Positions 332 through 6,286 of a DNA stretch of 20,794 nucleotides are shown here, one piece after another. The DNA is from a virus. Made by a program: the position numbers and the translations under genes. Below the pieces are notes generated by a model, which saw nothing but the letters and a program-made list of their open reading frames with translations, was not told the DNA's origin and did not search any database. Every line of letters starts with the position of its first letter. Positions within the stretch are counted from its first letter, which is position 1. Location: IMG/VR virus record IMGVR_UViG_3300034683_000339, positions 1 to 20,794 of that record; one strand, given 5' to 3'.

Positions 332-1753
332 ATGGCGCACCCCCTGGACGCCCTGCTCACCGAACAAGAACTGCGCGTCCTCCATGCGGAGCAGGCCCGG
401 CGGACCATGGCCGCTTTTGTTTCTTTCACCAAGGCCGATTATATCCACGGCCCCTTTTCCATGGCGGTATGCGAGGCCCTGGACGTGTTTCTCGCAGACG
501 TGGTCGCCGGGCTGCGACCGGTGTTGGTGCTCCAGGCCCCGCCCCAACATGGCAAGTCCGAATTGGTTTCGCGCCGGTTCCCCGCCTATGTGTTCGGACG
601 GCACCCGGACATGCGCATTGCGGCGGCTAGTTATGCGGCGGACCTCGCTCAGGACATGAACCGGGACGTACAGCGCATCATGCTGGAGGACCGTTATTCC
701 ACGGTGTTTCCTGAATCGTCCCTGAATCCGAAGCGGGTGGTAACAATGGAGGGGCAAGCACTGCGCAACGCCAGCCGCTTCGACATCCTGAACCACCGTG
801 GGTACTATATCTGCACCGGCGTGGGTGGACCGTTGACCGGCAAAAGCGTGGACATCGGGATCATCGATGACCCCATCAAGAACATGCAGGAAGCCCGCTC
901 CCCGGCAACCAAACGGGCCATCCAGAGCTGGTACAACACGGTCTTTTTGACCCGCCTCTCCAAGCGCAGCGGGCAACTCATTATGGCCACGGCCTGGGCC
1001 GTGGACGACCTGGCCGCCGCTGTGGCTCAAACCAACCCCAGAGCCCGGGTGCTGAAGTTCCCGGCCATCAACGAGGACGGCACGGCGCTTTGCCCGGAGC
1101 TCCACCCGCTGGACAAACTTTACGAGATCAAGGCTCAACTGACGCCTGCGGAGTGGAGCGCGCTGTACATGCAGTCTCCGGTGCGAGAGGGCGGCAACAT
1201 CTTCCAGGAGGATTGGATCAGGCGCTGGAACCGGGCCACGCTGCCAGCGACTTTCGACGAGATGATTCAGTCCTGGGATATGACGTTCAAAAACACCGAT
1301 GGTTCCGACTATGTGGTCGGCCAGGTTTGGGGCCGCAAGGGTGTTTACTATTATCTGCTGGCCCAGGTGCGCGACCGCATGGGGTTCACGGCCAGCCGCA
1401 GCGCGGTAAAGGCCACCGGCGTCATGTTCCCATCGGCCACAGCCGTGCTCATTGAGGACAAGGCCAATGGCCCGGCGGTCATTGATGCACTGCGTGATGA
1501 CGTGCCCGGACTCCTGCCCATCGAGCCGGATGGCTCCAAGGTGGCCCGGGCGCACGCGGTGACCGCCCTGTGGGCCGGTGGCAACGTGCTCATCCCTGCG
1601 GATGACGAGTTTCCGTGGGTTAAGGACTTCGTGGCGGAGCTGATCAGCTTCCCTGCGGGCGGCAATGATGATCAGGTTGATGCAATGACCCAGGCCTTGC
1701 GTTACCTCAAATCGCACGGTCTGAGCGTATGGGAGGCTCTCGCCGATGGGTAG
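332..1753 (+). CDS. Phage terminase large subunit
   Basis: This is the DNA-packaging motor: an N-terminal ATPase that pumps DNA into the prohead and a C-terminal RNase H-fold nuclease that cuts the concatemer or flanking DNA. The 473 residues are normal for the family. The Walker A motif is APPQHGKSE at residues 69-77 (K75), Walker B is IGIIDDP at 175-181 (D179/D180), and the coupling motif ATAW is at 219-222. In the nuclease, WDMTF carries D316, LIEDK carries E375/D376, and GGNDDQVDA carries D450, giving the expected acidic cluster. The ATG at 332 follows the upstream stop by one base. The 3' end overlaps the portal start by 8 bases, so the two are probably translated together. All key residues appear intact. 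Confidence 0.95.
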   Translation: MAHPLDALLTEQELRVLHAEQARRTMAAFVSFTKADYIHGPFSMAVCEALDVFLADVVAGLRPVLVLQAPPQHGKSELVSRRFPAYVFGRHPDMRIAAASYAADLAQDMNRDVQRIMLEDRYSTVFPESSLNPKRVVTMEGQALRNASRFDILNHRGYYICTGVGGPLTGKSVDIGIIDDPIKNMQEARSPATKRAIQSWYNTVFLTRLSKRSGQLIMATAWAVDDLAAAVAQTNPRARVLKFPAINEDGTALCPELHPLDKLYEIKAQLTPAEWSALYMQSPVREGGNIFQEDWIRRWNRATLPATFDEMIQSWDMTFKNTDGSDYVVGQVWGRKGVYYYLLAQVRDRMGFTASRSAVKATGVMFPSATAVLIEDKANGPAVIDALRDDVPGLLPIEPDGSKVARAHAVTALWAGGNVLIPADDEFPWVKDFVAELISFPAGGNDDQVDAMTQALRYLKSHGLSVWEALADG

Positions 1754-3329
1754 ACGACGCGACCACAAGCCGGGCGGGCGCGCGGCGCGCACCGCCGACG
1801 GCTTTGAGAACTTCACGGCCCGCCTGGGCCTGGGGCAGGACAACGCCCTGGCATCATCGGGCTACAGGCGCGGGCGGCCCCTGTCCGCCGATCGGCCAAC
1901 CCTGGACGCCATGTACCGCAGCTCCTGGGTGGTGGGGCGCATGATCGACGTGGTGGCCGAGGACATGCTGCGCGGCGGGCTGGACATTCAGTCCAGCCTG
2001 GCCCCCGGCGAGGTGGACAGGCTGCTGCTGCACATGCGCCGCCTGGGTGTCCCCGGGCGTCTGTCGGGCGCCATCAAATGGGCACGGCTCTACGGCGGGG
2101 CCCTGGCCGTGATGCTCATCGACGGCGCGCGGACCGAGGCGCCCCTGGACGTGCGTGCCGTGCGGCAAGGGAGCTTCCTGGGCCTGCATGTGCTCGACCG
2201 CTGGCAGGTCACCCCGAGCACGGACTGTGTGGGCGAGCTGGGGCCCATGCTGGGCTACCCCGAGTATTACACCGTCAACGACTCCCAGGGCCTGGGCGCA
2301 ATGAAGATTCACCACAGCCGTTGCTTGCGCTTTGTGGGCGTGGATCTGCCGTACCACGAGCGCCTGGCCGAGCAAGGCTGGGGCGCGTCGGTTGTGGAGC
2401 GCGCCTACGACCGCATCGTGGCGCTGGACAGCTCCACCCACGGCTCGGCCAACCTGATGCTGCGCAGCTACCTGCGGACCATCGGCGTGGACGGCCTGCG
2501 TGAGATACTGGCCGCCGGTGGACAGGCGGAAAAGGGCCTGCTCAAGATGTTCGAGATGATCCGCCAGATGCAGACCAACGAGGGCCTGACCCTGCTGGAC
2601 GCCAAGGACACGATGAGCACCTACAACTGGACGTTTTCCGGGGTCTACGACGCGATCCAGGCGTTCTCCGAGCAGATCGCCGGGGCCACGGGCATCCCCC
2701 TGGTGCGCCTGCTCGGGCAGTCGCCCAAAGGATTTTCCACGGGTGACAGCGACCTGCGCAGCTACTACGACACCATCGCCACCCAGCAGGACGACGACCT
2801 CCGCCCGGCGTACGAACGGCTGCTGCCCGTGGTGGCCATGAGTCTGTTTGGCCGCCCGCTACCGGAGGGCACGCAGTTCGAGTTCCGCGACCTGTGGCAG
2901 CCCACGGAGGCGGACAAGGCCCAGATCGCCACGGCGGACGCCCAGAGCGTGGTCGGGCTGTACGGCGCCGGGCTGATTTCCGAGGCCCAGGCCCTGGCCG
3001 AGTTGCGCGACGCGGGCCGCGTCACCGGGCGCTGGACGGGCCTGAGCGACGAGGCCATCCGGGCCGCCCAGGTGCAGGCCGCTCCTGCTGCCCCTGGCCT
3101 CGCCGTCCCGTCCGCCCCGTCCGGCGACGAGCCCACGCCACAGGAAGTCAGCCTCAACGGCGCTCAGGTGGCCTCGATGATGGAGATCGTGGCCCAGGTG
3201 GCCACCGGGCAGTTGCCCCGGGCCAGCGGCGTGGAGATGCTGCTGGCGGCGTTCCCCCTGTCCCGCGAGCAGGCCGAACGCATTATGGGCCAGGTAGGCC
3301 GGGAGTTCCGGCCTGCCGAGGGCGCCTGA
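1746..3329 (+). CDS. Portal protein, DUF1073 type
   Basis: The portal forms the ring at the unique capsid vertex, where the terminase docks and DNA enters and leaves. The protein has 527 residues, typical of this family. Features seen are LDAMYRSSWVVGRMIDVVAEDMLRGG split over residues 55-80, an IHHSRCLRF segment at 188-196 (the common portal IH.SR motif), KGFSTGDSDLRSYYDTI around 328-344, and a C-terminal SLNGAQV element from residue 469 followed by alternating helices. The ATG overlaps the terminase end. The stop TGA shares its A with the ATG of the MuF gene. Databases may label this family by the phage anti-CBASS protein Acb1 because they share an N-terminal domain name. I see no paired HxT phosphoesterase motifs here, so a portal is the better call. 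Confidence 0.9.
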   Translation: MGRRRDHKPGGRAARTADGFENFTARLGLGQDNALASSGYRRGRPLSADRPTLDAMYRSSWVVGRMIDVVAEDMLRGGLDIQSSLAPGEVDRLLLHMRRLGVPGRLSGAIKWARLYGGALAVMLIDGARTEAPLDVRAVRQGSFLGLHVLDRWQVTPSTDCVGELGPMLGYPEYYTVNDSQGLGAMKIHHSRCLRFVGVDLPYHERLAEQGWGASVVERAYDRIVALDSSTHGSANLMLRSYLRTIGVDGLREILAAGGQAEKGLLKMFEMIRQMQTNEGLTLLDAKDTMSTYNWTFSGVYDAIQAFSEQIAGATGIPLVRLLGQSPKGFSTGDSDLRSYYDTIATQQDDDLRPAYERLLPVVAMSLFGRPLPEGTQFEFRDLWQPTEADKAQIATADAQSVVGLYGAGLISEAQALAELRDAGRVTGRWTGLSDEAIRAAQVQAAPAAPGLAVPSAPSGDEPTPQEVSLNGAQVASMMEIVAQVATGQLPRASGVEMLLAAFPLSREQAERIMGQVGREFRPAEGA

Positions 3330-4561
3330 TGCCCTGGGCCCGTCCCTGGACCTGGCAGGACGCCGCCGCAGGCCGGGCCGCCTCGGCGGCCTGGCGCCCG
3401 TCCAAGGCCGCCGAGCGACGTTACGCCGAGCAGCTGCGCAGCGTGGCCACGCAGGTCACCGGGCTGCTGGCCCAGGGGCAGGAACCCCGGGCCGTGCAGC
3501 GCCAGCTGCGAGCCTACGCCCAGGCTCTGGATGCCTGGGCTAGGCAGGCGGCCACGAACATGGTCGGCACCGCGCGCCGCCACAACGAGCAGGGTTGGCG
3601 CGCCGCCGCCCAGCGCTGGGGCATCGACCTGCGGGCCTTCCTGGAGGCGGACATCGAGCAGGCCGTGCAAGACAAGGTCGAGGCCAACATCCTGCTCATC
3701 AAGAGCTTGCCGTTCCACGCCGCCCAGCGCGTGGGCGAGCTGGCCCAGCGCGCCGTGGTGGAGGGCACCCGCGCGGAGACCCTGGCCCGGCAGATCGTCG
3801 CCCAGGGCGAGGTGACCCAGGCCAGGGCGCGGACCATCGCCCATACCGAGGTCAGCAAGGCCCAGACGGCGCTGACCCAGGCCCGGGCCCAAGGCGTGGG
3901 CAGCGAGGGCTACATCTGGCGGACCACCCGCGACGGCCAGCGCCGCAGCTCCCACGCCGCCATGGAGGGCCGCTTCGTGCGCTGGGACCAGCCGCCGACC
4001 CTGGACGGCATGGTCGGGCACGCGGGGGAGACCCCCAACTGCCGCTGCTATCCAGAGCCCGTGGTGCCCGACGCCAAGGGCCGCCCCTCGCCCAGCCCGC
4101 TGCCCACGCAGGCGCAGGAGCGTCAGGCCGGAGAGATAGTGCCACGCAGCCATTGGGAGCGCCAGGGCACGAACCCCCTGATCCCGCACCAGCCCGGAAC
4201 GCCGTTGCACAACGTGGATCGGGCCAGGTTCGCCGCCTCAAAGCTGACCAATTACTCCATGGACCCGACCAGCCCGCGCGGCAGGGACAAGGCCCGGGTC
4301 TGGCAGGCGGCCCTGGGCATGGACAAAGGCCATGCCCAGGAGGTTGAGCGGCAAATCATGGCCCGTTTGGCCGAGTTGCCTGCCGTGAAGAGCGATGCCG
4401 ACGAGTATGGGGAGCGTTACAGCGTGTTCGTGCCTGTCACCGGTCCCAACGGGCGCACAGTTGACGTGCTGTCGGCCTGGATATATGAGCGGGATAAGAA
4501 GACAGGGGCCGTCAGCACCGTGCCCCGGATGATCAACTGCTACGTGCCGAGGCAACAGTGA
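3329..4561 (+). CDS. MuF head-morphogenesis protein with C-terminal DUF6883-like (putative toxin) domain
   Basis: Residues 1-245 form a Mu F/SPP1 gp7-type minor head protein, which binds the portal and is packaged in the virion. Seen are IAHTEVSKAQ near 169-178, an RTTRDGQRRSSH...EGRFVRWDQPP region from about 197 (H208), and the cysteine pair in PNCRCYPEP near 236-244. After a Pro/Gln-rich linker (about 245-292) comes a domain that does not belong to plain MuF: LTNYSMDPTSPRGRDKARVW near 305-324, DEYGERY near 357-363, SAWIYER near 382-388 and a terminal INCYVP. This matches my knowledge of the DUF6883 family, which occurs at the ends of MuF-type polymorphic toxins and beside DUF4926 genes. The start is the ATG at 3329 (TGATG junction with the portal); the longer upstream frame is an artefact. 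The MuF call is strong, the DUF6883 call good, and toxicity is inferred. Confidence 0.85.
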   Translation: MPWARPWTWQDAAAGRAASAAWRPSKAAERRYAEQLRSVATQVTGLLAQGQEPRAVQRQLRAYAQALDAWARQAATNMVGTARRHNEQGWRAAAQRWGIDLRAFLEADIEQAVQDKVEANILLIKSLPFHAAQRVGELAQRAVVEGTRAETLARQIVAQGEVTQARARTIAHTEVSKAQTALTQARAQGVGSEGYIWRTTRDGQRRSSHAAMEGRFVRWDQPPTLDGMVGHAGETPNCRCYPEPVVPDAKGRPSPSPLPTQAQERQAGEIVPRSHWERQGTNPLIPHQPGTPLHNVDRARFAASKLTNYSMDPTSPRGRDKARVWQAALGMDKGHAQEVERQIMARLAELPAVKSDADEYGERYSVFVPVTGPNGRTVDVLSAWIYERDKKTGAVSTVPRMINCYVPRQQ

Positions 4562-4803
4562 TGGAAGAATTCGCCCAGGTCCGCCTGCTCCGGCCCCATG
4601 TCGGGCACGATGCCTACGGGGTTGGCGGGGAGCACAGCCTGCCTGCCGGGTCGGTGGGCACCGTTGTCGCACGCCTGGGCAACGGTGCGGCCTTCGAGGT
4701 CGAGTTCACGGTGCGCCCGCCGCTGTTCGACGGCGACGCGGTGCTCGACGCCGGGGAATATCACCACGTGACCCTCACCCCCGACCAGATCGCCCCTGCC
4801 TGA
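4561..4803 (+). CDS. DUF4926-like small protein, candidate immunity protein for the MuF-DUF6883 partner
   Basis: This gene encodes an acidic 80-residue protein, with the ATG sharing a base with the MuF stop (a GTG codon at 4558 would add one residue). Its pattern is LLRPH..., then LPAGSVGTVVARLGNGAAFEVEF, then a short loop and VTLTPDQIAP. That is the signature of DUF4926: a small SH3-like beta barrel with an L..G..GTVV......EVEF core and a C-terminal L..dQl motif. DUF4926 genes are often found immediately beside DUF6883 genes. The tight coupling to the toxin-like MuF end suggests that the two products are made together and that this one neutralises its partner. It is the last gene of the packaging block; a hairpin starts at its stop codon. 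The family call is fairly good; the immunity role is inferred from context. Confidence 0.7.
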   Translation: MEEFAQVRLLRPHVGHDAYGVGGEHSLPAGSVGTVVARLGNGAAFEVEFTVRPPLFDGDAVLDAGEYHHVTLTPDQIAPA

Positions 4804-4831
4804 AACGCCCGCCCGGGCGTTTCTCCGTTTC
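4803..4831 (+). terminator. Hairpin terminator after the MuF/DUF4926 cassette
   Basis: A perfect 8-bp inverted repeat, AAACGCCC (4803-4810) and GGGCGTTT (4815-4822), encloses a 4-base loop. It starts at the last base of the DUF4926 stop codon. The 3' arm ends in TTT and is followed by CTCCGTTT, a weak T-rich tail, so it looks like an intrinsic terminator that could work on both strands. It separates the packaging block from the capsid block and lies before the largest gap in the first half of the window. Confidence 0.55.
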
Positions 4832-5011
4832 TGCCCGCGCCCATGCAAGGGCCATGGCCGCCCGACGCCTCCTGACCCGTTCATGAACGCTTTTGAACAC
4901 CCCTGCGCGGCGCCCCGAAGGCGCCTCGCCCCTCCCAGCCTGGGCCAGACCCCGGGCAATTTGTAAACCCCTTTACAAGACCCCATCGCGGCAGCGGGCT
5001 ATCAGGGCCCC
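4832..5011 (+). promoter_or_regulatory. Intergenic region with several inverted repeats, possible promoter or operator of the capsid operon
   Basis: This non-coding stretch carries three dyads. CGTTCATGAACG (4878-4889) is a perfect 12-bp palindrome with a further TGAAC half-site just downstream. GGCGCC occurs twice (4909-4914 and 4920-4925) around CCGAA and could form a hairpin. TTGTAAA (4961-4967) and TTTACAA (4972-4978) form a perfect 7-bp inverted repeat around CCCC. The last lies about 35 bases before the protease ATG in an AT-richer patch, as expected for a promoter or operator. I cannot find a convincing -35/-10 pair, so the regulatory call rests on the dyads and on the upstream terminator. 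Confidence 0.35.
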
Positions 5012-6286
5012 ATGCCGCGCTTCCACCTACCCACCCGCCTGTCGGAACATCTGGCCGAAACCCCCGAGGGATTCCTGGTCTGCCGGGACGTGCCCATCGC
5101 CCGTGTCGGGGTCCAGGAATACGCACCGGGTGAGGCTCCCGAAGTGCAAGCCGCAGGACAGGCGCTGGTACGCATCGAGCGCGGCGAGGACGAGGTGTTT
5201 GCCCCCGAGGCCGTGGCCTCATTCGAGGGCAAACCCTTGACCGTGGGGCACCCCGACGAGGACGTGACCCCCGCGAACTGGCGGGCGCTGGCCGTTGGCC
5301 ATGCCCAGAACGTCCGGCGCGGGGCGGGAGTCCAATCCGATCTGCTGCTCGCCGACATCGTCGTCACCGACGAGCGGGCCATCACCCTGGTGCGCGCGGG
5401 GCTGCGGGAGGTCTCCTGCGGCTACGACGCCGAGTACGAGCAGACAGGCCCGGGGCGGGGGCGCCAGACTGCCATACGGGGCAACCATATCGCCCTGGTG
5501 CCCCGGGGGCGTTGCGGCCCCCGCTGCCGCATCACCGACAACCACGACAAAGAGGACGCCATGACCAAGATGAAGAAGAAAACCTCCGTGACGGACCGGC
5601 TGCTGGACGTGTTCCGGCGCCCGGAAGTGCGCAAGGCGCTGGACGAGGCCGAGCCCGACCCCGTGGCTTCCGCCGAGGCGGGTGCCGAGGAAACCGCCAA
5701 GGACGAGGAAGGCGGGCAGCGCTTGGCCGCCCTGGAAGCCTCCCTGGCCGAACTGGTCATTGAGGTGCGGCGCATCGCCGCCAAGGTGGACAAACCGGAG
5801 CCCGGCGCCGCCACGGATGACGAGCCGGACCCCGAGGAGGTCAAGGACGAAGACGAGCCGCAGGGTGAGACCGGCGAAAAGGCCAAGAGCGGCGGGGCGC
5901 GCGACGCCGCGCCCGCCCGCGTCCGCGACGCCGCTACCGTGGACAGCGACACCCGCCGCCGGGCCGAGGCCATGGTGCCCGGTCTGCGTGTGGCCGCCGC
6001 CGACAAACGCTGCGCCGTGCAGCGCGTGGCCCTGCGCTCCGCCGTGCGCGACGCCGCCGTGGCCCGGACCGTCAACGGTGTGCTGCGCGGCTCCACCCTG
6101 GACGATTGCGACTGCGTGACCCTGGACGCGGCGTTCCTGGCCGCCAGCGAGGTGGCCGCCGCCAACAACAACCGCCGCACCGCCGACGGCCTGGCCCGGG
6201 CCAGCGTACGCGATTTCGGGCACACCGTGACCCCGGCGGACATCAACAAGCTCAACGCCGAGTTCCACAACAAGGGAGGCAAATAG
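5012..6286 (+). CDS. DUF2213 prohead protease with C-terminal scaffold region
   Basis: Residues 1-180 match the DUF2213 family, a maturation protease that clears scaffold and trims capsid proteins in the prohead. Visible blocks are GKPLTVGHPDEDVTPANW at 73-90 (H80), REVSCGYDAEY at 132-142 (S135) and GNHIALVPRGRCG at 157-169 (H159). H80 and S135 are my candidate catalytic residues, by analogy with other prohead proteases. Residues 184-424 differ sharply: very acidic and basic, low complexity, with a coiled-coil-like LAALEASLAELVIEVRRIAAKV segment in the middle and a compact C-terminal domain, as in scaffold proteins. The ATG at 5012 has only a weak AGGG upstream. A better-placed internal start at 5561 could yield the scaffold alone. 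The next gene follows after 2 bases. Confidence 0.85.
   Translation: MPRFHLPTRLSEHLAETPEGFLVCRDVPIARVGVQEYAPGEAPEVQAAGQALVRIERGEDEVFAPEAVASFEGKPLTVGHPDEDVTPANWRALAVGHAQNVRRGAGVQSDLLLADIVVTDERAITLVRAGLREVSCGYDAEYEQTGPGRGRQTAIRGNHIALVPRGRCGPRCRITDNHDKEDAMTKMKKKTSVTDRLLDVFRRPEVRKALDEAEPDPVASAEAGAEETAKDEEGGQRLAALEASLAELVIEVRRIAAKVDKPEPGAATDDEPDPEEVKDEDEPQGETGEKAKSGGARDAAPARVRDAATVDSDTRRRAEAMVPGLRVAAADKRCAVQRVALRSAVRDAAVARTVNGVLRGSTLDDCDCVTLDAAFLAASEVAAANNNRRTADGLARASVRDFGHTVTPADINKLNAEFHNKGGK
5561..6286 (+). CDS. Candidate nested scaffold protein from an internal start in the protease gene
   Basis: An in-frame ATG (Met184 of the protease) begins MTKMKKKTSVTDRLL. It lies exactly where the protease domain ends and the acidic, coiled-coil scaffold region begins. 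AAAGAGGA at 5549-5556 gives a plausible ribosome-binding site four bases before the ATG, better than the one at the full-length start. A 241-residue free scaffold would result, co-terminal with the fusion. Lambda C/Nu3 and several other phages make scaffold this way so that scaffold outnumbers protease. The start and ribosome-binding site are seen in the sequence; their use is inferred. Confidence 0.5.
   Translation: MTKMKKKTSVTDRLLDVFRRPEVRKALDEAEPDPVASAEAGAEETAKDEEGGQRLAALEASLAELVIEVRRIAAKVDKPEPGAATDDEPDPEEVKDEDEPQGETGEKAKSGGARDAAPARVRDAATVDSDTRRRAEAMVPGLRVAAADKRCAVQRVALRSAVRDAAVARTVNGVLRGSTLDDCDCVTLDAAFLAASEVAAANNNRRTADGLARASVRDFGHTVTPADINKLNAEFHNKGGK

Follow-up and report, generated by a model that had tools for sequence, protein, structure and literature searches.

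Polymorphic toxins built on MuF head proteins are established in temperate phages (Jamet et al. 2017, PMC5576092). According to the account given there, the MuF gene lies right after the portal gene, the extension exceeds 100 amino acids, a small open reading frame (ORF) stands directly downstream, and the toxin domain is common to another type of exported toxin; the known toxin domains occur mostly in phages of Firmicutes, and many proteobacterial extensions carry no known domain, a third being grouped as Ct_MAD. Here we describe a locus of this kind in an IMG/VR virus record of 20,794 bases (20.8 kb), a fragment that is called the window below. It codes for a MuF protein ending in a DUF6883 domain and, directly behind it, for a small DUF4926 protein. 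Based on predicted models and sequence comparisons, we consider it reasonably probable that DUF6883 and DUF4926 form a toxin-immunity module, consisting of a capsid-delivered BECR-fold ribonuclease (RNase) that cleaves tRNA (tRNase) and its immunity protein. The locus resembles the toxins of Jamet et al. (PMC5576092) in the four features listed above, and differs from those described in that its relatives lie in metagenome-assembled genomes (MAGs) of Desulfovibrionales and the families of its putative toxin and its putative immunity protein are both domains of unknown function (DUFs).

Three further described systems come close. The MuF toxins Bxa and Apk2, reported as antibacterial through ADP-ribosyltransferase and (p)ppApp synthetase chemistry (PMC11699363), share with this locus a MuF N-terminus, a toxin C-terminus and neighbouring immunity genes, whereas their chemistry is not that of an RNase, the activity predicted for DUF6883. 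A BECR fold has also been predicted for the PBECR domains, which are fused to MuF and portal domains (Iyer et al. 2017, PMC5512222); these are described as having a His (Arg in one family) in the N-terminal helix and a Ser/Thr, whereas in DUF6883 a Lys and a Tyr are invariant and a DUF4926 gene usually follows downstream. The CdiA-CT/CdiI pairs of Klebsiella pneumoniae 342 (Kp342; PDB 6CP9) and Escherichia coli 3006 (6CP8), whose toxins are BECR tRNases (PMC9086364), resemble DUF6883 in its predicted fold (Z 9.4 and 7.4, respectively); judged by alignment end-points, a Lys/Tyr/His/Arg/Thr-Ser set conserved in DUF6883 would fall at or close to the published positions. In contrast, sequence similarity to them was not detectable, CdiA-CT is delivered by contact-dependent inhibition and not by a capsid, and the window's copy of DUF6883 does not have the His and Thr; the likeness rests on the toxin half, not on the immunity protein. 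MuF toxins, MuF-fused BECR domains and antibacterial MuF toxins with immunity genes are already known, and what is new here is a proposed function for the two DUFs. No published function was found for either family; a full-text literature search gave no paper that names DUF6883 and one, on cyanophages, that names DUF4926.

Architecture of the MuF protein and of the gene behind it

The MuF gene follows the portal gene directly and codes for a protein of 410 amino acids that combines two Pfam domains. The elements of the fusion and of the adjoining gene are as follows.

3329..4561, + strand: MuF-DUF6883 fusion protein, 410 amino acids (Pfam, sequence)
3731..4048, + strand: Phage_Mu_F domain, residues 135-240 (PF04233; PHROG 324)
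4049..4204, + strand: MuF-to-DUF6883 linker, residues 241-292 (interval separating both Pfam matches)
4205..4546, + strand: DUF6883 domain, residues 293-406, a predicted BECR-fold RNase (PF21814; model, fold matches and conservation)
4561..4803, + strand: DUF4926 protein, 80 amino acids, a predicted SH3-like immunity protein (PF16277; model; co-occurrence and co-divergence)

The Phage_Mu_F match scored 66.6 bits against a cut-off of 29.6 (PHROG 324, head morphogenesis, E 4.6e-69), and a CRC motif at about residue 240 is followed by a linker rich in Pro and Gln. The DUF6883 match covered profile positions 2-108 of 110 with 66 bits against a cut-off of 27 (E 4.4e-18); PHROGs gave no match for DUF6883 alone. 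The C-terminal extension amounts to 170 amino acids. The 80-amino-acid protein matched DUF4926 with 31.3 bits, barely above the cut-off of 29.1 (E 1.3e-7), and had no match in NCBIfam. The first base of its ATG (4561) is also the last of the MuF stop codon (TGA, 4559-4561), and an alternative GTG start lies at 4558; an ORF of less than 150 amino acids directly behind the extension is the size seen in described MuF toxins. A first-pass annotation made from the sequence had placed the end of the MuF domain at the CRC motif, with a Pro/Gln linker and a separate DUF6883-like domain behind it, and had recognised a DUF4926 pattern in the tiny gene on the stop codon. The Pfam matches bear out this layout, with a near-complete match for DUF6883 and one just above the cut-off for DUF4926.

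DUF6883 and DUF4926 among MuF relatives

The window was compared with 80 orthologues from viral contigs, the best 80 of 245 stretches retrieved by a search with five aligned N-terminal parts of MuF proteins, giving a set of 81 MuF genes. E-values for this set, and for the loci outside the clade described below, are relative to small ORF sets, and the profiles used on the MuF set include some of the sequences under test. A DUF6883 extension reaching 164-187 amino acids past the CRC motif was present in 26 of the 81 genes, and a DUF4926-type ORF stood behind each of these 26, at a spacing of -14 to +16 nucleotides. The remaining 55 genes ended at most 37 residues past the motif, and none had a DUF4926-type ORF behind it. 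Since the MuF-DUF6883-DUF4926 arrangement is repeated in 26 of 26 DUF6883-bearing genes among the 81, it exceeds chance, although the carriers are related to one another and do not count as separate events. The first-pass annotation had named, as a finding that would speak against it, a C-terminal part aligning to ordinary MuF proteins of phages without the small gene; judged from this set, the C-terminal part is not ordinary MuF sequence, as both the domain and the small gene are missing from the 55 short orthologues. Every listed MuF protein at least 48% identical to the query bore DUF6883. In a second set, gathered by portal similarity, eight loci with portals 58-72% identical had DUF6883 and a small ORF behind it (that of L011 escaped blastp and was recovered by profile, as L117), and 16 loci with portals 41-48% identical had no ORF matching DUF6883 or DUF4926, some of these loci ending before or within the MuF gene.

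Several single loci among these relatives differed in detail. The MuF-DUF6883 frame of the copy in a Desulfovibrio MAG (L029) and of one viral contig (L134) is just 327-328 amino acids long and is without about 80 residues of the usual N-terminus. Downstream of one short MuF gene lies an ORF that looks Nudix-like by eye (L027, 7562-7942), and behind another there is a small ORF (L012, 7415-7666) in which a GHTGVV stretch is SH3-like.

The pair outside the phage clade

Adjacency of the two families was also found away from this clade. Among 297 genomes of the phylum to which the Pseudodesulfovibrio MAG belongs (E 0.001), DUF6883 occurred in 13, DUF4926 in 14 and both, side by side, in 11 (Fisher p 8e-16). 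In G001 and G017, the two genomes where DUF6883 came without a PF16277 match, an ORF of 81-84 amino acids occupies the same place, and three of the 14 DUF4926 genomes (G143, G201 and G211) gave no DUF6883 match. In a second phylum, DUF6883 was found in 6 of 398 genomes. Thirty DUF6883 loci were collected outside the phage clade; a DUF4926-like ORF lay directly behind the domain in 21 of them with a profile that includes some of these loci, and in 16 with a profile from phage-clade sequences alone. Small proteins from such pairs matched DUF4926 in 24 of 32 cases (Pfam, E 0.01).

The settings of these copies are diverse. Two plasmids, one of them a conjugative plasmid from Stanieria and the other from Rubrobacter, carry stand-alone DUF6883-DUF4926 pairs in which both families are named in the annotation. 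An unrelated prophage on an Anoxybacillus plasmid has a MuF protein with DUF6883 as its C-terminus (PF04233 and PF21814), and a head-operon protein of the phage contig L080 ends in DUF6883, PF04233 being undetected in that protein. A Rhizobium haemagglutinin-repeat (Fil_haemagg_2) protein ends in DUF6883 and is followed, with a 4-nucleotide overlap, by an unannotated ORF of 74 amino acids; this is the one case found of DUF6883 in another type of polymorphic toxin. A tblastn search of an annotated phage collection with the DUF6883 domain gave no match at E 0.01, and a scan of viral contigs with the Anoxybacillus domain found no relative. The earlier view of DUF6883 and DUF4926 as recurrent neighbours agrees with the 26 of 26 pairs in the MuF clade and with the stand-alone pairs and non-MuF settings.

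These settings bear on whom the pair serves. DUF6883 might be an RNase effector used for the phage's own benefit, against RNA- or tRNA-based host defence or in host takeover, and not an inter-bacterial weapon, with DUF4926 holding it off during assembly. For phage BECR domains, which they found in fusion with MuF, Iyer et al. (2017, PMC5512222) proposed roles of this sort; the gene sits in the packaging operon, and DUF6883 is fixed in the clade, with no swap for other toxins among the MuF proteins listed at or above the identity given above. However, the same pair stands behind a haemagglutinin-repeat protein and on its own, settings to which a role in phage takeover is inapplicable; PADLOC, moreover, gave no convincing match. 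We judge this alternative unlikely. A PADLOC match to DruD (12.8 bits, E 0.011) was treated as chance.

At three loci in bacterial genomes (L062, L063 and L065), DUF6883 is truncated or interrupted and the DUF4926 ORF behind it is of normal length. This pattern is expected if DUF6883 is harmful and DUF4926 protective, and the small genes are possible orphan immunity genes, although the partial matches could also mean divergence. The same three loci, together with the plasmid-borne stand-alone pairs and the likeness of the predicted fold to BrnT and RelE (see below), would suit a captured toxin-antitoxin (addiction) module fused to MuF, which would stabilise the prophage and be loaded into virions incidentally. 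We regard this as very unlikely: fusion to a late head gene would imply low expression in a quiet lysogen, a sigma-70-type promoter-like site was not found in 4300-5100, and the MuF fusion is kept in 26 of 26 clade copies (albeit copies found through their MuF part).

Other copies outside the clade showed further arrangements. Short DUF6883 genes standing alone (L067 and L069-L074) retain Lys, Tyr and Thr. In L049 (4004-4324) and L077 (4001-4321), a gene for a large protein and a 93-amino-acid ORF are followed, after about 0.3 kb, by an orphan DUF6883 cassette; in L049 a small DUF4926-like gene follows it, and the arrangement resembles the orphan toxin cassettes of polymorphic toxin loci. In a bacterial genome, a protein that looks MuF-like by eye carries DUF6883 (L060, 1-1887) directly behind ORFs with a repetitive translation like that of a CRISPR array.

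Predicted fold and active site of DUF6883

An AlphaFold2 model of residues 278-410, built from 17 sequences, had a predicted local distance difference test score (pLDDT) of 92 and showed three helices followed by four strands. The best solved match in Foldseek was the CdiA-CT toxin of K. pneumoniae 342 (E 0.007, probability 1.00, template modelling (TM) score 0.54). Re-alignment of the Foldseek candidates with VIA-align again put this toxin at the top (Z 9.4, 2.5 Å over 101 residues), followed by CdiA-CT of E. coli 3006 (Z 7.4 and 7.0) and then by BrnT, a Salmonella toxin-antitoxin complex and RelE (5.2 each); rows 1-8 were bacterial toxins or their complexes without exception. Among predicted viral structures, three from metagenomic phages matched the model at E <0.001, namely two minor capsid proteins (6e-12 and 6e-10) and one "zinc-binding metallo-peptidase" (2e-8).

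Conservation was assessed on an alignment of 41 rows, obtained by dropping 8 of 45 loci (truncated, duplicate or unusual) and adding the window, L077, L079 and L080; it retains the identical or near-identical pairs L029/L034, L049/L077 and L048/L079, and its positions plus 277 give residue numbers in the window's protein. K28, Y32 and K44 were invariant (41/41), W107 was present in 40 rows, His38 in 32 and Arg123 in 31, and position 126 held Thr (31 rows), Ser (7) or Asn (3), which gives 38/41 for Thr/Ser. The active site of the Kp342 toxin has been reported as K157, Y160, H170, R252 and T255, a triad of Lys, Tyr and Thr in which a His and an Arg are also key residues, and its substrate as deacylated tRNA-Ile (PMC9086364). 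VIA-align laid positions 22-130 on 151-259, and this offset of 129 at both ends would set K28, R123 and T126 on K157, R252 and T255, as far as end-points can tell; the same offset leaves the Tyr off by one and the His off by three. On these models, we take DUF6883 to be a BECR RNase and, most probably, one that acts on tRNA.

The DUF4926 protein and its co-divergence with DUF6883

The model of the 80-amino-acid protein (pLDDT 94) was all-beta except for a short helical turn and resembled SH3-like barrels. Its best structural matches were NusG and ferredoxin-thioredoxin reductase (Z 7.8, a strength common for such matches, from which no descent is claimed); Foldseek gave no solved structure at E <=0.001, and a profile search of solved structures with 32 DUF4926-like proteins gave weak matches, some of them to SH3- or KOW-type chains. 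DUF4926 is predicted to be an SH3-like barrel, and no more is claimed.

The partner of this protein was sought by partial Mantel tests on 22 distinct pairs (three duplicates and L134 dropped; 20 pairs when the portal was included), the permutations of which do not fully account for shared ancestry. Distances of the small protein followed those of DUF6883 with its linker when MuF was held constant (r 0.59, p 0.0002), and not those of MuF when DUF6883 with its linker was held constant (r 0.05, p 0.28). With the linker trimmed and MuF as sole covariate, the value for DUF6883 was 0.61 (p 0.0005). Adding the DUF2213 protein, encoded by the next gene downstream, gave 0.58 for DUF6883, 0.13 for MuF (p 0.10) and 0.11 for DUF2213 (p 0.14), and adding the portal too gave 0.47 (p 0.001), 0.04 and -0.10, respectively. 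Since the small protein tracks the distances of DUF6883 after MuF, DUF2213 and portal have been partialled out, its partner is most likely the DUF6883 domain, with some other signal left over. The overlapping start codon and the co-divergence fit an immunity protein made together with its toxin.

The copy of DUF6883 in the window

The window's copy retains K305, Y309, K321, W384 and R400, and has Ser315 at the predicted catalytic His and Asn403 at the Thr/Ser position, so that its catalytic set is incomplete. The ratio of nonsynonymous to synonymous substitution rates (dN/dS) for DUF6883 lay between 0.18 and 0.36 in eight comparisons and was 0.05 for two near-identical copies, with dS partly saturated. 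Against L007, L008 and L003, the window's domain gave 0.23, 0.18 and 0.36, and its small protein 0.58, 0.33 and 0.46 (dS near saturation in some rows); the MuF part gave 0.32 and 0.34 against L007 and L008, its L003 row being set aside for a wrong reading frame. Pairs with the full residue set gave 0.27-0.33 for DUF6883. By these ratios, the domain seems to be maintained in the window under purifying selection. Because two positions depart from the predicted catalytic set, the predicted activity is less sure for this copy than for the DUF6883 family.

Such a departure could mean that the window's domain has lost catalysis and serves as an RNA-binding or structural domain of the head, a role that has been suggested for the C-terminus of gpF of phage Mu, which is BECR-like and inactive (Iyer et al., PMC5512222). 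The two substitutions, and that description of an inactive BECR domain in Mu gpF, speak in its favour. On the other side, the five residues named above are retained, the small gene is kept and co-diverges with DUF6883 across the clade, and the ratios of the window against its three relatives are similar to those of full-set pairs, dS being partly saturated. We hold loss of catalysis to be improbable.

Proposed function and host

The first-pass annotation had taken the two genes for a candidate effector-immunity system within the packaging operon; the co-occurrence in MuF relatives and the occurrences outside MuF support this view. In the mechanism that we propose, the MuF part would put the fusion protein at the portal or head during assembly, as the MuF literature suggests. 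DUF6883 would act as a metal-independent endoribonuclease of BECR type, with a fold and an arrangement of active-site residues like those of the CdiA-CT tRNases from Kp342 and E. coli 3006. A few capsid copies would enter the new cell along with the DNA and cut tRNA there, and the cell might be slowed, killed or biased to lysogeny. The DUF4926 protein, made from the overlapping next gene, would bind and block DUF6883, as its linkage and co-divergence suggest, and might shield the virion-producing cell and possibly the lysogen.

Several results weigh against a toxin-immunity module. The 26 DUF6883 carriers include duplicates and represent 23 distinct extensions, and their complete linkage with DUF4926 probably stems from one inherited acquisition, not from 26 independent events; outside the clade, nine of the 30 loci had no recognisable DUF4926 behind DUF6883, seven of them being the short solo genes mentioned above. 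The window is not the one copy with an incomplete set: in the 23 distinct phage copies (three duplicates dropped), the His is present in 13 and missing in 10, and position 126 holds Thr (14 copies), Ser (5) or Asn (4). As for the fold, no solved structure matched the DUF6883 model in Foldseek at E <=0.001, an NTF2-like protein ranked second (E 0.013) and designed proteins also stood below CdiA-CT. When solved structures were searched with profiles of 17 and of 24 aligned DUF6883 domains, nothing meaningful matched and no solved BECR toxin showed sequence similarity, so that the fold is assigned from predicted models; the residue match with Kp342 was inferred from alignment end-points and not from a residue-by-residue superposition. 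In the Mantel tests, the small protein was also correlated with MuF when the linker was trimmed and MuF was the sole covariate (r 0.27, p 0.005), and with the portal when that was included (0.28, p 0.006).

A broader history would unite these copies: one mobile tRNase-immunity cassette moving among stand-alone plasmid pairs, proteins of the contact-dependent-inhibition type and phage heads. Some phage copies, the window's included, might then have been re-tuned (no His, Asn for Thr) into a capsid-delivered slow or re-targeted RNase that pauses the host and favours lysogeny over killing. We put this forward as a doubtful extension of the toxin-immunity reading. That reading offers a testable function for two DUFs present in several phyla: DUF6883 would be an RNase like CdiA-CT, and DUF4926 would provide immunity to it. 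The reading would also add a phage clade with Desulfovibrionales members to the candidate MuF toxins, among proteobacterial extensions many of which lacked a known domain, and would make one module common to phage-head toxins, plasmid-borne pairs and haemagglutinin-type exported proteins.

Relatives of the window's phage lie in contigs of Pseudodesulfovibrio and Desulfovibrio MAGs, and its hosts are probably sulphate-reducing bacteria. The Desulfovibrio copy (L029) is in a 610-kb contig and has two notable neighbours at a distance of about 10 kb, an AAA ATPase and a transposase of the rve type, a pair of genes also found in Mu-like phages. This neighbourhood points to a phage that is temperate and transposable. 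Among the features listed for the contigs bearing the two MAG copies there was no integrase. The window's phage is probably temperate.

Neighbouring features in the window

The packaging operon in the window runs from the large terminase through the portal, the MuF protein, the 80-amino-acid gene, the DUF2213 protein and the major capsid protein to the tail genes. The features flanking the pair are the following.

332..1753, + strand: large terminase subunit (Terminase_6N and Terminase_6C, Pfam)
1746..3329, + strand: portal protein (Phage_portal_3, E 1.5e-100, Pfam); its TGA shares one base with the MuF ATG
4802..4823, + strand: hairpin over the DUF4926 stop codon, 9-bp stem, a possible transcript end
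5012..6286, + strand: DUF2213 protein (PF09979, E 1.2e-51), next downstream gene and control in the co-divergence test

The hairpin was absent from the output of a consensus terminator scan. Its folding energy was -16.1 kcal/mol over a 45-nucleotide stretch (z -2.1), which suggests that the packaging transcript may terminate behind the DUF4926 gene. A hairpin with a T-rich tail lies 3' of the DUF4926 gene in 8 of the 26 DUF6883 carriers, two of these eight being duplicates of each other.

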